Shown piece by piece: positions 46,132 through 53,181 of a DNA stretch of 64,000 nt. The stretch covers positions 62,001 through 126,000 of the forward strand of contig CALFNN010000104.1 of assembly GCA_937902925.1 (NCBI GenBank). The letters run 5' to 3'. This DNA comes from an uncultured Opitutaceae bacterium. GTDB taxonomy: Bacteria; Verrucomicrobiota; Verrucomicrobiia; Opitutales; Opitutaceae. The position numbers were made by a program, and so were the translations under genes. Within the stretch, counting starts at the first letter, position 1, and each line of letters opens with the position of its first letter. The notes under the pieces were generated by a model, which saw nothing but the letters and a program-made list of their open reading frames with translations, ran no database searches and was not told where the DNA came from.

Positions 46132-48108
46132 TCACGCACCAAGTTGCGGCCGCGCGGCGGCGCGGGCGGCCCGATCGCCCGCCTGCAGCCAGTCGTGGCC
46201 ACGGGTCAGCGCGGCCATCAGGTCGTCCGTGCGCACGGGCTTGCTCAAATAGTCCTGCATCCCCGCCTCGAGGCAGGCGTTGTAATCTTCCTTCCGGGCA
46301 TTCGCCGTGAGCGCCAGCACGTAGGGCGGCGTGTCGGCCGGGACGACGGCACGCAAATGCCGCGTCGCCTCGAGCCCGTCCATCTCCGGCATCTGCACGT
46401 CCATCAACACGAGGTCGCACGGCTGCCGGGCGAGGTGCTGCAGCACTTCGCGCCCGTTCGCCACGGCGGCGGGACGGTAGCCGAGCCGCTCCAGGATGGT
46501 GAGGATGACCTTGCGATTCACCGCATTGTCCTCCGCCACGAGGATGCGCAGGGGATTGCGTCGCGAAAAATCGCGGTCGAATGGCGAGGCCAGCGCCGCC
46601 CGCTCGACGGGCACGGTGGAATGCCCGAGCGCGTGCACGATCACCGTGTAGAGTTCGGTCGGCTTGATGGGCTTCGTCATCTGGGCCACCACGGGCGCCC
46701 CCGTCAGCGTCGGCAGTTCACCCCGCGACGTAAGCATGATCACCGGCGGCAGCGTCGCGGCAAACCGCGCCCGCAGCGCCGCCGCCACCTGCACCCCGTT
46801 CATCACCGGCATGTCGAAATCCAGCAGGACCACATCGAACAGTTCGCCCCGCTCGAACCGCGCGAGCGCCGCCGCGCCGTCGGCGACGCATTGCACCGTC
46901 ATCTCCCAGCTTGCGAGCTGGCGGTCGAGGATGCGGCGGTTGATCGCGTTGTCGTCGACCACGAGCACGCGGCGTCCGCGCAGGTCGACGGCCGGCGCGG
47001 CCGCCACCGGAGGTGCGCCGGCCGGCTGGGCGCCGACCCCGACGATGAAGCTGAAACACGTCCCCTGGCCGACCTCGCTCGTCACGACGATGCGTCCACC
47101 CATGAGCTCGACCAGCCGCCAGCTGATCGCGAGGCCGAGCCCGGTGCCGCCGTAGCGCCGCGTCGTCGAGGCGTCGCCCTGGGAAAACGATTTGAACAGC
47201 CGGTCCATGTGCCCGGCGGGAATCCCGATGCCGCTGTCCTCGACGACGAACGCCAGCCGCCAGCCCGCCTCGGCGGGCTCCGCGGAAACGGACACCATGA
47301 TGCCGCCCTGCGCGGTGAACTTCACCGCGTTGCCCACGAGATTCACGAGCACCTGGCGCAGGCGCGTGCTGTCGCCGACGACCACCCGCGGCACGTGCGC
47401 GCCGACATACAATCCCAGCTCGATGCCCTTTTCCGCACAACGCGCGGCGAACAAGTCGAGCACCTGCTCCAGGCCCTGCCGCAAATCGAAGGGATGCGAT
47501 TCGAGCTCGAGCCGGCCGCTTTCGATTTTGGAGAAGTCGAGAATGTCGTTGATGATGTCGAGCAGCGCATCGCCGCTGTTGCGGATGGTCTCGACGTATT
47601 CGCGCTGCTCGGGCGGGAGCTGCGCGTCGAGCAGGAGGCTGCTGAGGCCGATGATGGCGTTCATCGGCGTCCGGATCTCGTGGCTCATGTTGGCCAGGAA
47701 TTCGCTCTTCGCCCGGTTGGCCGCCTCGGCGGCCTCCTTCGCGGCGCGCATCCCCGCCTCGGCGGCGTTGCGCTGCCGGATGAGGTCCTCGAGCACGTGG
47801 GTGAGCCCGAGCAGGTCGTCCGCCGTCGGCGTCTCGGCGCCCTCGCCGGCGTGCAGGGCCCGCACCGACGCTCGCAGTTTTTCGAGCACGGCGAGGTTGC
47901 GCGCATTCTGTTCGAGCAGCCGCTCGTTGGCCACGGCGATCTCCTCGGAACTCAGCGCCATCGCGCGGTCGGTCAGGCGGCGGTCCGTGTCGAACTGGTC
48001 GTAGGCGTCCTGCACCGCGTCGAGCAGGCGCCGCCACGCCGGGGGAATCTCGGGCTCGGGCCCGAGCACCTTGCGCACCTGGCGGTCGAGTAGGCGGTGG
48101 CGAAACAT
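46132..48108 (-). CDS. hybrid sensor histidine kinase with two receiver domains
   Basis: This is a 658-residue cytoplasmic kinase. It has an N-terminal helical/coiled-coil lead (1-145) with no membrane helix, a HisKA domain with the phosphorylation site [13 protein letters not shown], a HATPase domain ([31 protein letters not shown]), then receiver 1 ([27 protein letters not shown]) and receiver 2 ([28 protein letters not shown]). It lacks a sensor domain of its own and is coupled by a four-base overlap to the FIST-domain gene upstream, which probably provides the signal. Confidence 0.93.
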
Positions 48109-49238
48109 CAGTCCTCCCGCAGCGTGGTGATCGTCATGGTCTGGTTGTGCAACTGGCACGCCACCGAGCTGCCCGAGGGCGCCAGCTCGCCATAGGAGTA
48201 AAAGCCGGTCAGCACCGCCGCGGGGCCAACGACGGCGCGCACGCTCTCGGTCTCTTCCTCGGTGCGCTGCCCCAGCACGATCCGGCGGCCCACGCAGCTC
48301 ACGCAAATCGCCAGCTCGGCCGCCGTCCCGCCGCGCGTCTGCTCCGCCGCCTGCGCGGCCCCGTCGATCAAATCCTCGTAGGACGCCCGCATGAACCGCA
48401 CGCGCGCGCCGGCGGGAATGTCGCCCGCGAACGTCATCGCCTCCGCCTTTTCGTCGATCGACAGGATCGTGCGCACCACCGTGTGGTCGGAGCCGGCGGG
48501 CGTCACGCACAACGGGAAACGCAGCGCGGACCCGGGCAGCTGCGCCGCCTGATCGCCGAGATATTTCTTGTAGAGCTGCAGCGCCGACTGCCCATCGAGC
48601 TCGTAGAGCGTGTTGTGCTCCGCGCGCGTGACGATGCGGGCCGGCCCGAACGCCTCCCAGCCCCCCGCCGAGCCGAAGCCCACGCGCAGCGCCGACCCGC
48701 CCAAGCCGACGGCGACGATCCGCCCGGGCACCGGACGCTCGTCGAGCCCGACGACCGTGCGTTCGAAACGCGTGCCGTCACCGGCGAGTCCGCCGCTCAG
48801 CTGGACGCCGCGCGGCAGGTTTTCGTTGAAGCCCCGTGCCAGCTCGGTGCCGTTGACCAGCTGCCCGTCGGAGACGACGAACACGTGCACCAGGTCGGGC
48901 GCGTGCAGCTGGCGGGCCAGTTCGCGCCCGGCCTCGTGGCTCTGGCTCACCCGGGAAACCGTCGCCGCCGCGCAGACCACGCGCGTCTTCGCAAACGCCA
49001 GCGCCGTGGCGACCAGCCGGCCTTCGCTGACCTCGGTGCCCATGATTTCGCCGGACGTGGACGCCGCCAGCACGCGGGCTCCGGGATAAAATTTCCCCAC
49101 CTCATCGAGTCCGGTTCCCGCCTCCAGCAAATCACGGTCGCCAAACACGAACACGAGCTGCGCCCGCTCACTCGCGAGTTCGCCGTCCCGCATGCCCCAT
49201 CCCGTCGCGGGATCGAAGACACGCTGCTCGATTTTCAT
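48108..49238 (-). CDS. FIST-domain signal sensor protein
   Basis: This is a 376-residue soluble protein with FIST N (about 25-215: [43 protein letters not shown]) and FIST C (about 220-360: [44 protein letters not shown]) domains. FIST proteins bind small ligands. The pairing with a sensorless hybrid kinase resembles NosP, a heme-containing nitric-oxide sensor that regulates a neighbouring kinase. I cannot confirm heme ligands from the sequence. ATG 49238 (MKIEQRVFD) is preferred to the longer start at 49247. The end overlaps the kinase start. Confidence 0.87.
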
Positions 49239-49320
49239 GACCGACACCTAGCGAGCGCAAACCGGCCGGTCGATGCCAAAACCGCCCGCCCGCCGGGGAC
49301 TCTGCCCCGCCGGCGGCGGG

Positions 49321-49402
49321 TCACGCCTCCGCCACCACGAGATCCTTCTCGATCTTCAGGTTGTCGATAGTGAAGTCCCGCCGGTCGGACGTGTTCTTGC
49401 CC
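49321..49402 (-). pseudogene. displaced remnant of the parE 3' end
   Basis: This 82-bp stretch aligns with the last 76 bases of parE (50140-50215): 67 of 76 bases match, with one 6-base insertion near the stop. Translated, it gives NTSDRRDFTIDNLKIEKDLV against [20 protein letters not shown] in parE, and keeps a stop codon. No other part of parE is present. The FG-GAP lipoprotein gene lies exactly between the two copies, ending 4 bases from this one. It looks like a scar of insertion or recombination at the 3' end of parE. Confidence 0.8.
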
Positions 49403-49405
49403 GCT

Positions 49406-50107
49406 TCAATTGGGAGCCAACGCCGGCGACTCCTGATGCGGCTCTTTGTCCAACTCCAGTTTCTCCTCCCGAATCCGGAAAAGCCGCCGCGACGCATCCC
49501 AATCGAGCGAAACCTTGAAATCCTTGTCCTTCTCCGGAGTCCGCCGGCGGTAGTCTTCATAACAAAAACCCGCGGCGGTCAGCTCGAAGGCGTCGGTCGA
49601 GTTTTCGTCCGGCGGCGCTAGGACAAGAACGTTGGCACCTTCGATTCGCAGCGGTGCGACCCGGCCTGCGGGCAGGACGGTGAACAGGCAAAATGCCGAG
49701 TTGATACAGCTGCCATAGGATCCGACGTTGAAATCGAGCCGTCCGTCGTGGTTGTAGTCGGCGGTGACGATCGGCCATGGCTGGTCGGACCACGCACGGA
49801 AGAATTCGAAGACGTCGTTCAAACCGAGGGACTCGAACGTGGTGTCCACCGTCGCGCCGCCGGCAAACGCGACGCGAAACACGAACTGACCCGTATATTT
49901 CTCCCCCGCCCCGCACCAAAGGTCCTCGTCGACGAAACGCCGGCCGCCCATCCAGACGAGCGAGAGGACATCATTGCGCCCATCGCCGTTGAAGTCCTGG
50001 ACCGCCCGGCCGAGAACCACCGGAGGGCAGTCGTTGGTTGCAGCGAACGGCGCCGCACAAGAGGCGAGCGACGGCAGCAACGTGACGAACAACCAAATTG
50101 CGCGCAT
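49406..50107 (-). CDS. secreted FG-GAP/VCBS-like lipoprotein inserted at the parE 3' end
   Basis: This is a 233-residue exported protein. The N-terminus MRAIWLFVTLLPSLASCAAP is a lipoprotein signal peptide (LASC). Two Asp-rich calcium-loop motifs of the FG-GAP/EF-hand-like type follow: QDFNGDGRNDVLSLVW (about 37-52) and ADYNHDGRLDFNVGSYG. Four or more Cys residues may form disulfides. The codon choice looks less GC-rich than in its neighbours, which would fit transfer. It begins 32 bases after the parE stop and ends at the displaced parE fragment, so it fills the gap between two copies of the same sequence. Confidence 0.7.
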   Translation of the reverse strand: MRAIWLFVTLLPSLASCAAPFAATNDCPPVVLGRAVQDFNGDGRNDVLSLVWMGGRRFVDEDLWCGAGEKYTGQFVFRVAFAGGATVDTTFESLGLNDVFEFFRAWSDQPWPIVTADYNHDGRLDFNVGSYGSCINSAFCLFTVLPAGRVAPLRIEGANVLVLAPPDENSTDAFELTAAGFCYEDYRRRTPEKDKDFKVSLDWDASRRLFRIREEKLELDKEPHQESPALAPN

Positions 50108-50139
50108 GTGATCGTCCGCCCGTCTGCGGCCTACAAGCC

Positions 50140-51981
50140 TCACGCCTCCACGAGATCCTTTTCCACCTTGAGATTGTCGATGATGAAGTCCTGCCGGTCG
50201 GGCGTGTTCTTGCCCATGTAGAATCCGAGCAACTCGTCGCTGTTGTGGAGATGGCTTAGGCTCACCGGCTCGAGCCGGATATTCTCGCCAATGAAATCCT
50301 TGAACTCACCCGCCGAGATTTCCCCGAGGCCCTTGAAGCGCGTGATCTCGTGGCTCGCCCCGAGCTCGGCAATCGCCGCCTGCTTCTCGGCCTCCGAGTA
50401 GCAATAGATCGTCCGCTTCTTGTTGCGCACGCGGAAGAGCGGCGTGTCGAGGATGAAGAGGTGGCCGTTGCGGATCAGGTCGGGAAAAAACTGCAGGAAG
50501 AATGAAATCAACAGCAGCCGGATGTGCATGCCGTCGACGTCCGCGTCCGTCGCGATGACGACCTTGTTGTAGCGGAGCCCATCGAGCGCCTCCTCGACGT
50601 TGAGCGCGGACTGCAGGAGGTGGAATTCCTCGTTCTCGTAGATGACCTTCTTCGACAGCCCGTAGGTGTTGAGCGGTTTGCCCTTCAACGCAAAGACCGC
50701 CTGCGTCTGCACGTCGCGCGTCGCCGTCAGCGAGCCGGCGGCGGAGTCGCCCTCGACGATGAACAGCGTGCTCTCCTCCGCGCGCGCGTTGCGGTCGCCC
50801 AGGTGCAGGCGGCAGTCGCGGAGCTTGCGGTTGTGGAGCGAGGCCTTCTTCGCCCGCTCGCGCGCGAGCCCGCGGATGCCGGCGAGTTCCTTGCGCTCGA
50901 GTTCGCTCTCCTCGATCTTCCGCTTCAACGTCTCGGCCAGCTCCTTGTTCTTGTGCAGGTGCCCGTCGAGCGACTGCTGGATGAACTTGCCGACAAATTC
51001 CTTCAGCGACGGGCCGTCGGGCCCGACATTCGCGGAGCCGAGCTTCGTCTTGGTCTGCGATTCGAACACCGGCTCCATCACGCGCACCGCGATGGCCGCG
51101 TCGATCGACTGGCGGATGTCGGCGGCATCGTAGTCCTTCTTGAAAAAATTCCGCACCGTCTCGACCAGCGCCTCGCGAAACGCCGCCAGGTGCGTGCCGC
51201 CCATCGTCGTGTGCTGGCCGTTGACGAACGAGTAATACTCCTCGCCGTAGTGCCCGCCGTGGGTGAACGCCACCTCGATGTCCTCGCCCTCGAGGTGCAC
51301 GATGGGATAGAGCGGGTCGCCGCTGAGCTCCTTCGTGAGCAGGTCCTTCAGCCCGTGCTCCGATTTGAACGGCTTGCCGTTGAGCGTGAGCGTAAGGCCG
51401 CGGTTGAGGAACGCGTATTTCCACAGCATGTCCTCGATGAACTCGGCGCGGAACCGGAAATCCTTCCCGAACAGCGCCTCGTCCGGCGTGAACTCGACCA
51501 GCGTGCCCGTGCGCTCGCCGGTCTTCGCGACCTTGTGGTCCTTCTTGAGCTTGCCCTGGACGAACTCGACGAGCTTCGTCTGCCCGTCGCGAAACGCCTG
51601 CGCCCGGTAGTCGAACGCGAGGGCGTTGACCGCCTTCTGGCCGACGCCGTTGAGGCCGACGGATTTTTGGAAGGTCTCGCTGTCGTATTTCGCCCCCGTG
51701 TTGATGATCGAGACGCAGTCGATCAATTTGCCGAGCGGGATGCCGCGGCCGAAGTCGCGCACCCGGAGCGTGCGCTCGGTCAGCTCGACCTCGATCCGCC
51801 TGCCCGCGCCCATCGTGAATTCGTCGATGCTGTTGTCGATCGTCTCCTTGAGCAGGACGTAGATGCCGTCTTCCGCATGCGAGCCGTTGCCGAGCCGGCC
51901 GATATACATGCCGGGGCGGAGGCGGATGTGCTCCAACGACGAGAGGGTTTTGATCGATGCTTCGGTGTAGGCTTGGGCCAT
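50140..51981 (-). CDS. parE: DNA topoisomerase IV subunit B
   Basis: This is the ATPase subunit of topoisomerase IV. The 613-residue protein has the GHKL ATPase motifs ([13 protein letters not shown] with the Mg-binding Asn, [24 protein letters not shown]), a transducer domain, and the TOPRIM domain with [12 protein letters not shown] and [14 protein letters not shown]. The start [23 protein letters not shown] is normal. Its last 25 codons are duplicated in degenerate form at 49321-49402. The partner parC lies downstream on the same strand but is separated by four other genes and the remnant. Confidence 0.92.
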
Positions 51982-52132
51982 GGGAAAAGTTTCGCGTTGC
52001 GCGGCGGTGGCACCGCACAGCGTCCGGCCGCGGCCCCGCGTGACAAGCGAAATTCCCGGCGGGCTCCTGTCGTGTGCAAAAATAATTCTTCCCTCGGAAA
52101 CTTTTGCGGCACGCCCTCGTCTTCCCCGCACG

Positions 52133-52378
52133 ATGAGTCCGGTCGCGTGCAGCGGAAGTCAAAGTCAACGACGTCGCACCCACCCGAGAACCTGGCCGAG
52201 CCTAGGGGAACCACCCGTTCGCGAATCGGTCACATCCCCCGCGAAAAGTCGCCGTCCGCGATTCTGGCGGTCGGTGTTGTGCGCTCTCTGGCTGCTCGGT
52301 CTCGGGCTCTTCGCCGGATTCGTGAGCGAACGGTTTTCCGCCGCCGGAGAAAATATTCGCGTGCACGTCGGTCCCTAG
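52133..52378 (+). CDS. small single-TM protein, tentative
   Basis: This frame of 81 residues has a basic N-terminal half, then [23 protein letters not shown], which would make one membrane helix with a short tail. I recognise no family. The frame is open further upstream, so the start is uncertain. It lies between divergent parE and the AsmA-like gene. Support is limited to the plausible membrane helix and codon pattern. Confidence 0.4.
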
Positions 52379-52437
52379 CAGGCGGCTTGCGCTCCGGCGC
52401 CAGGGAGCCCATGGTGGCCGGCAGTCCCGTCCCACCG

Positions 52438-53181
52438 ATGCGCAAAAAACTCCTCTATGTCGCCGGCGGTCTCGCCGTGCTCGCCGTCGCCGTCTTTGTC
52501 GGCCTCGAGTTCTTCCTCGGCTCGATCGTCACGGCCGGCGTCAACCGCTTCGCGCCGCAGATCACCCAGACCAAGGTCGAGCTCGCCGGCGCGCATATTT
52601 CGCCGCTCAGCGGCGTTGGCACGCTCACCGGCCTCTACGTCGGGAATCCCAAGGGCTGGGCGTCGGACAAGGCCTTCTATCTTGGAAAAATCCATGTCGA
52701 CGTCGCGCCGTTTTCCCTCCTCGGCGACCACATCATCATCAATGAAATCACGATCGATCAGCCGGAATTCGTCTATGAGACCAAAATCGTCGCGAGCAAC
52801 ATCGGCGACCTCCTGAAGAACATCGAGCAGACCACCGGCGGCGGCACCACGGGACCGGCGGCCACCACCAAGAGCGGGAAGCCCATCAAGATGGTGGTCA
52901 AAAAATTCGTTTTGCAGAACGGCCGGGTAACCCTTGGCGTCGGCCCGGCCGCGTTCACGATCCCGATGCCACCCGTCACGCTCACGGACCTCGGCACGGC
53001 GGAGAACGGCATCACGCCCGGCGCCGTCGCGGTCGCCGTCATGCGCAGCGTCACCCCGAGCATCGTCGCCGCCTCCACCCAGGCGCTCACCAAGGTCGGC
53101 GGCACGACGGGCGCCGCCGCCGCCGAGGCGGCCAAACAGGCCGGGGCCGCGATCAAGAACCTGTTCGGCGGGAAAAAATAG
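52438..53181 (+). CDS. AsmA-like/DUF748-type membrane-anchored protein
   Basis: This is a 247-residue protein with an N-terminal membrane helix (YVAGGLAVLAVAVFVGLEFFL) and a periplasmic domain: ITQTKVELAGAHISPLSGVGTLTGLYVGNPKGW, then KIHVDVAPFSLLGDHIIINEITIDQPEFVYE. This is the start of an AsmA/DUF748-type repeated beta domain, the group that includes inter-membrane lipid-transport bridge proteins. It is far shorter than full AsmA proteins. The C-terminal part is Ala/Lys-rich (AAAAEAAKQAGAAIKNLFGG). It appears to be a single-gene unit. Confidence 0.75.
   Translation: MRKKLLYVAGGLAVLAVAVFVGLEFFLGSIVTAGVNRFAPQITQTKVELAGAHISPLSGVGTLTGLYVGNPKGWASDKAFYLGKIHVDVAPFSLLGDHIIINEITIDQPEFVYETKIVASNIGDLLKNIEQTTGGGTTGPAATTKSGKPIKMVVKKFVLQNGRVTLGVGPAAFTIPMPPVTLTDLGTAENGITPGAVAVAVMRSVTPSIVAASTQALTKVGGTTGAAAAEAAKQAGAAIKNLFGGKK

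Follow-up and report, generated by a model that had tools for sequence, protein, structure and literature searches.

The window, by which we mean the whole 64,000-nt stretch of DNA analyzed here, comes from an uncultured Opitutaceae bacterium and carries an intact parE gene, whose product matches DNA_gyraseB, Toprim and HATPase_c above the Pfam cut-offs and is 91% identical to its closest relatives among the matches listed (Table 1). Behind parE on the same strand lies a single gene for an FG-GAP-repeat protein, followed by a second, degenerate copy of the parE 3′ end, with the stop codon of the intervening gene 3 bases from that copy, one fewer than the first-pass annotation had counted. A consensus scan of positions 49200–50300 returned neither terminator-like nor promoter-like sites, and a GC-rich hairpin past the displaced copy, considered as a native terminator, was dropped with that result. 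An 885-codon open frame also runs antisense to parE (50524–53181, + strand) and could mislead gene callers that rely on ORF length.

Table 1. Features of the parE 3′ region in the window, listed in the direction of transcription
Feature	Position	Strand	Basis
parE (topoisomerase IV subunit B), intact, 613 aa	50140..51981	-	ORF + Pfam
Current parE 3′ end (copy in use)	50140..50215	-	repeat search, alignments
Spacer between parE stop and cargo start, 32 nt	50108..50139	-	read from sequence
Cargo gene, FG-GAP-repeat protein, 233 aa	49406..50107	-	ORF + Pfam
Displaced, degenerating copy of the parE 3′ end	49321..49402	-	repeat search, alignments, profile scan
FIST-domain gene, first gene past the displaced tail	48108..49247	-	ORF + Pfam

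The repetition of the parE end is evident by several measures. A repeat search of the window paired 49330–49402 with 50143–50215 at 86% over 73 nt, and the ungapped alignment of the two matches at 63 of 73 positions, spanning −76 to −3 of parE. Aligned end to end, the last 76 bases of parE match the copy at 67 positions with one 6-nt insertion in the copy, reproducing the figures first reported, and the distance from the parE stop to the copy, previously put at about 740 bp, is 737 nt. The copy scores 53 as a parE tail, while 500 dinucleotide shuffles of the downstream DNA reached at most 15. It translates as GKNTSDRRDFTIDNLKIEKDLVVAEA up to a stop codon, where the parE counterpart has 24 residues. 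Since the P, the Q and the first I that are altered in the copy are invariant in 15 aligned family tails, the displaced tail is decaying, with its remaining differences from parE either silent or V/I exchanges, as are found between functional tails. A second full-length parE decaying in place, which had been named as a case that would overturn the idea of a displaced end, was rejected: a 180-base query against the window's own genome found only two sites at E ≤ 0.001, the two tails described here.

The gene between the two tails matches FG-GAP (PF01839) at 25.9 bits against a Pfam cut-off of 22.1, so that the original assignment of one FG-GAP gene to the gap holds. Its start is presumably lipoprotein-like, LASC fitting the lipobox motif. 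The GC content at third codon positions (GC3) is 0.76 for this gene versus 0.92 for parE. We found no homologue in the 251 other family genomes, in the other 371 of 372 order genomes, among the genome contigs of close relatives, or in plasmids or phages. This cargo gene is foreign-looking.

To see how far this layout extends, we ran a profile built from 15 parE tails on 252 family genomes, 226 of which matched, 11 of them with two or more matches at E ≤ 0.01. The named matches in the survey belong to Opitutaceae/Opitutae, and the 80 relatives retained (Opitutaceae, Opitutae, Opitutia, Opitutus, Verrucomicrobia and related names) are nearly all metagenome assemblies. In seven of the 11 (the window's genome, G000, together with G163, G167, G168, G170, G157 and G253) a short second tail lies 0.7–1.5 kb behind parE. 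Four double matches were set aside: those of G032 and G268 fall on two contigs, that of G160 reflects a parE cut by contig ends, and that of G046 is an assembly artefact in which near-identical parE tails flank a run of N (L018 / L295). We also read the DNA behind 141 parE copies from 140 genomes (a selection of 132 of the listed profile matches, eight of the two-match genomes and the window), 5 of these regions extending less than 1.7 kb downstream. Seven of the 141 regions carry a displaced tail, and nucleotide and profile scans concur on the same seven, with nucleotide scores of at least 40 (null maximum 26) and profile scores of at least 40.3 (null maximum 25.2, next best 23.1). Two further nucleotide scores above the null maximum, in G187 (30) and G210 (27), are long gapped alignments without support from the profile scan and were not accepted. 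Among the 226 matching genomes no more distant second tail was found at E ≤ 0.01, a search in which tails under about 14 aa are undetectable. On the parE tree the seven displaced-tail rows need 5 changes, which suggests four gains and one loss. The four events differ in cargo, namely BrnT, PhnA/YjdM-like, HipA and FG-GAP, so both the pattern first described (the 3′ end of a conserved gene restored, the old end displaced and cargo between) and the expectation of other cargo between parE and a second tail are borne out in relatives.

Outside the family the layout was not found in the order sample. The parE tail matched in 169 of its 352 genomes, a count that takes in family members, and three genomes from beyond the family had two matches; in G392 and G497 these resemble fragments of parE cut off at the ends of contigs, and the second match of G439 is weak (25.1, equal to the null maximum), on the opposite strand and 13 kb away. 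As a control, a single SufB sequence, a query less sensitive than the parE profile, matched 221 of the 252 family genomes, 18 more than once. When the multi-match genomes were rerun, no second SufB match had the form of a short truncated tail downstream of the main one; long frames made up most of them, including 438–455-aa frames adjoining the main copy in G114, G117, G225 and G226, which we take to be SufD-like, and the short frames in G273 (at a contig start), G144 and G137 are all on other contigs. Counted by genome, displaced tails differ between parE (7/226) and SufB (0/221) at p=0.015, and counted by event (4 versus 0) at p=0.12. Given the event-level value, we do not claim that parE is especially liable to such events.

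The clearest view of what the second tail represents comes from genus g26. Four members (G163, G167, G168 and G170) have the same DNA inserted between parE and a displaced tail, the insert of G170 encoding BrnT (PF04365) beside a partner ORF with no Pfam match, and those of the other three resembling it by eye. In a fifth member, G166, no cargo is present and the parE stop is followed by atcgcgactattatctatgcaccga, the same stretch that in G168 follows the displaced tail, as it does in G170 apart from one change. A HipA gene likewise starts 109 nt past the displaced tail in G163 and G168 and 109 nt past parE in G166. The DNA behind parE in G166 and its HipA spacing are thus shared with the DNA behind the displaced tail, and the g26 displaced tail is therefore the old parE end. 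The parE tree groups G166 with G163, G168 and G170, with G167 outside. Nested among inserted genomes in this way, G166 is most simply read as having lost its cargo between the two tails, and this loss was probably clean. The G170 assembly contains two versions of the displaced tail (C287 end, L064; C147, L063) that differ at parE-like bases, which suggests a strain mixture or gene conversion between tails.

These genomes also bear on whether the layout could be a trivial one, in which the parE end was copied within its own genome or contigs were misjoined. An artefact of that sort does exist, in G046, but in the window both tails stand on a single contig and the copy has diverged, four separate assemblies share the g26 layout, and a copied tail would by itself bring no unique cargo. 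We consider local duplication or faulty assembly to be very improbable.

The other two events show different cargo again. In G157 it is PhnA/YjdM-like (PF03831), the two tails being identical at 52 of 54 positions, and the insertion is, as far as its tails can be dated, a young event. In G253 the cargo is HipA-like, identified by clustering with the HipA_C protein of G168. Among the regions read, BrnT and PhnA occur behind parE only in inserted genomes. Thirteen genomes, L142 (G166), L162 (G042), L139 (G103) and L168 (G255) among them, have a HipA-like gene that begins less than 130 nt past parE, and they are scattered so as to need 11 label changes on the tree. A test for parE tails travelling together with HipA was negative, since 271 of 500 shuffles gave values just as low. 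Between parE and HipA we often saw, by eye, a TCTGTGCG(A/T)AA-like motif.

Displaced ends are not confined to parE. For parC, named as such by its DNA_topoisoIV match (Pfam), 5 of 85 copies in 84 genomes have displaced tails (G202, G192, G204, G036 and G038). In G202 there are three clear ones at +85, +3709 and +4521 and a weak fourth near +3910, and the array (L082 / L227), which occupies 0–4.7 kb behind parC, includes a DUF899 gene whose own tail is displaced too. This parC/DUF899 array is the clearest serial case, and serial displaced ends of this kind are absent from the window locus. In G192, G204, G036 and G202 the nearest displaced copy lies 37–85 nt behind parC with no gene between, from which it follows that a displaced tail needs no cargo gene. 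A copy without cargo had also been named as an observation that would speak against the original reading; such copies do occur at parC in the sense that no gene intervenes, though some inserted DNA does. Ahead of several displaced parC tails in genus g37 (L072, L076, L077, L082) we saw by eye REP-like palindromes (GCGACGGCGGA, GACGAAGGCGGG), and a REP-related joining process at these tails is possible.

A tail scan of 368 downstream genes (57 parC, 48 S41 and 17 HipA among them) yielded the parC cases of G202 and G192, tandem phage-tail-like paralogues in G039 (by eye), and a cyclopropane-synthase (CMAS) gene in G172 whose last 87 nt occur again 918 nt downstream, the intervening DNA holding a PIN-domain gene. 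Weak matches in G227, G145, G283 and G049 (24–28, null maximum 22) were not counted as cases. A further scan covered 238 tails in G000, 273 in G202/G187 and 524 in parE loci; apart from L233, its matches besides parE, parC, CMAS and DUF899 were by eye paralogues, repeats or weak. At the other end of the gene, one clear displaced 5′ end was seen among 49 parC starts examined, in G186, where 130 of 147 nt of a parC head (−54 to +93 around the start codon) lie 151 nt behind parE, the place where several relatives start parC, and the intact parC lies 3.6 kb past this head. The remaining displaced heads listed look like paralogues, with the exception of L234.

The first-pass annotation had interpreted the two tails as att sites of an integrating element that targets the 3′ end of a conserved gene, with a decayed or recombination-driven event as its fallback. 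On the first interpretation, a small element or island remnant whose attP carries the parE 3′ end would have been inserted site-specifically at an attB in parE, giving attL and attR, by an integrase that either worked in trans or has since disappeared. The layout does resemble known 3′-end integrations, toxin-antitoxin cargo is common in cassettes, every measured displaced tail begins within about 144 nt of the stop codon, and the probable clean loss of cargo in G166 also speaks for it. The boundaries, however, vary between events: the displaced copies begin at −76, about −62, −54 and −142 in the four parE events, and seven of the eight parC copies measured begin between −54 and −144, the remaining one, a weak copy, at −35. 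No common crossover core was found among the measured parE and parC displaced tails, and the start of the displaced parC tail in G202 has no perfect core (CTCACAGTAACAAAG / CTGACCGTCACCAAG). The target genes are also unrelated, and one case is at a 5′ end. The window's genome has 15 phage-integrase matches, 13 of them above the cut-off, but none is on the window's 201,675-nt contig, in accordance with the initial remark that no integrase is present; this search addressed tyrosine integrases. Finally, no remoter second parE tail was found in the 226 genomes, and one degenerate tail pattern was not found in viral contigs. Site-specific integration is thus an unlikely account, and the fallback of a recombination-driven event fits better.

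Synonymous divergence towards the gene ends provides a further view. In 18 close parC comparisons among 9 genomes (g37 and its neighbours), synonymous differences rise from 0.09–0.14 in the body of the gene to 0.33–0.92 in the last 135 nt, as a slope, and family-wide the parC values go from about 0.2–0.29 to 0.45–0.51. For parE a clear rise is confined to the last 30 nt. The parC slope is also present in G187, G199, G274 and G123, which have no displaced parC tail; parC GC3 over the last 20 codons drops to 0.4–0.9 in g37 and its neighbours, with or without a displaced tail; and the S41 control also rises in its last 60 nt (0.50/0.48 versus about 0.35). Relaxed codon bias at gene ends may therefore contribute.

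Scattered breakpoints, unrelated targets, the 5′ mirror case and the parC slope together argue for homology with one loose end over a fixed attachment site. We therefore favor, as moderately probable, a one-sided homologous insertion of DNA that carried a related gene end together with cargo. Incoming foreign DNA would have contained the 3′ end of a related parE and then the cargo gene; homologous, presumably RecA-dependent, recombination would have taken place within or upstream of the resident parE end; and the other end would then have been joined into the resident parE about 76 bases before its stop, either through illegitimate (micro-homology) recombination or, had the DNA arrived as a circle, by way of a single crossover. 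Such steps would leave parE whole with the incoming tail, the cargo behind it and the resident tail downstream and free to decay, and the two tails would form a direct repeat permitting later deletion of the cargo. We infer that the window's own event was of this kind. In favor of this one-sided insertion we count the recurrence at parE above the nulls, the parC, CMAS and DUF899 cases and the 13 HipA placements behind parE. Against it, no donor was found, the test of joint travel with HipA came out negative, and the DNA after the displaced tail in G163 and G167 has diverged from that of G166. In addition, random joints along a 1.8-kb gene should often leave longer tails, so the bias towards the 3′ end needs explaining; our guess is that long repeats are lost by recombination, hence the short tails.

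A circular intermediate could also act alone, with recombination between tails freeing a circle of tail and cargo, which a single crossover would then insert into the parE of another genome; a scheme of this sort has been proposed for rhs tips. That tails can recombine to delete what lies between them is suggested by G166, and the G202 array resembles the strings of rhs ends (PMC2935791), but we saw neither a circle nor the same cargo at a second site, and the scheme requires a first insertion of another kind, leaving it distinctly unlikely. A broader reading is possible but doubtful: parE and parC ends in Opitutaceae may serve as an integrase-free capture platform, at which short cassettes of a tail plus a gene or toxin-antitoxin pair are gained, stacked and lost again and again. 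Such a platform would resemble an integron array that lacks an integrase, has an essential gene as its anchor and works via tail repeats.

Read as the product of one-sided insertion, a displaced end suggests a readable trace of the event, the breakpoint and the age of a single foreign-gene insertion, and it suggests that single foreign genes may settle beside essential genes without mobile-element enzymes. If this is general, displaced core-gene ends would let such insertions be counted across bacteria, and displaced-end scans would test the use of essential genes as anchors by toxin-antitoxin genes.

Phages and islands are known to integrate into the 3′ ends of protein genes such as icd. As there, incoming DNA at parE restores the gene end and the old end is displaced; here, in contrast, no integrase was found, the boundaries vary and the parE cargo is 0.7–1.5 kb. 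Homology-facilitated illegitimate recombination has been described during conjugation in E. coli (PMC3240628) and proposed for small variable segments in E. coli (PMC2884548). The proposed mechanism is alike, the difference being that here it is deduced from genome layout and that its trace is a displaced gene end. A process akin to it has been proposed for immunity-gene arrays of the V. cholerae T6SS (PMC5361080), which share with our loci one homologous anchor, an illegitimate other end and sequential displacement, but concern effector-immunity modules at T6SS loci whereas ours concern housekeeping genes. For rhs genes, C-terminal displacement with proposed circular intermediates has been described (PMC2935791). 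A new end with trailing DNA is added there too, the former end moves downstream, where it decays, dissociated ends come to stand in strings, and homologous recombination proceeds without an integrase; rhs ends, however, are variable tips, while here a gene for a housekeeping topoisomerase subunit has a conserved end and acquires cargo unrelated to it. A displaced homologous end with unrelated DNA between, different cargo in relatives and, at parC of G202, several displaced ends in a row were found here as in rhs- and T6SS-type loci. We nevertheless do not place the locus in the rhs-type family, because no variable tip is exchanged: the 15 family tails show the parE end to be conserved. In the literature searched, partly as titles and the beginnings of abstracts, we found no description of the displaced-end layout at parE or parC. 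What differs from the known cases is the anchor, a housekeeping topoisomerase gene with a conserved end, and the cargo, which is unrelated and partly toxin-antitoxin-like.
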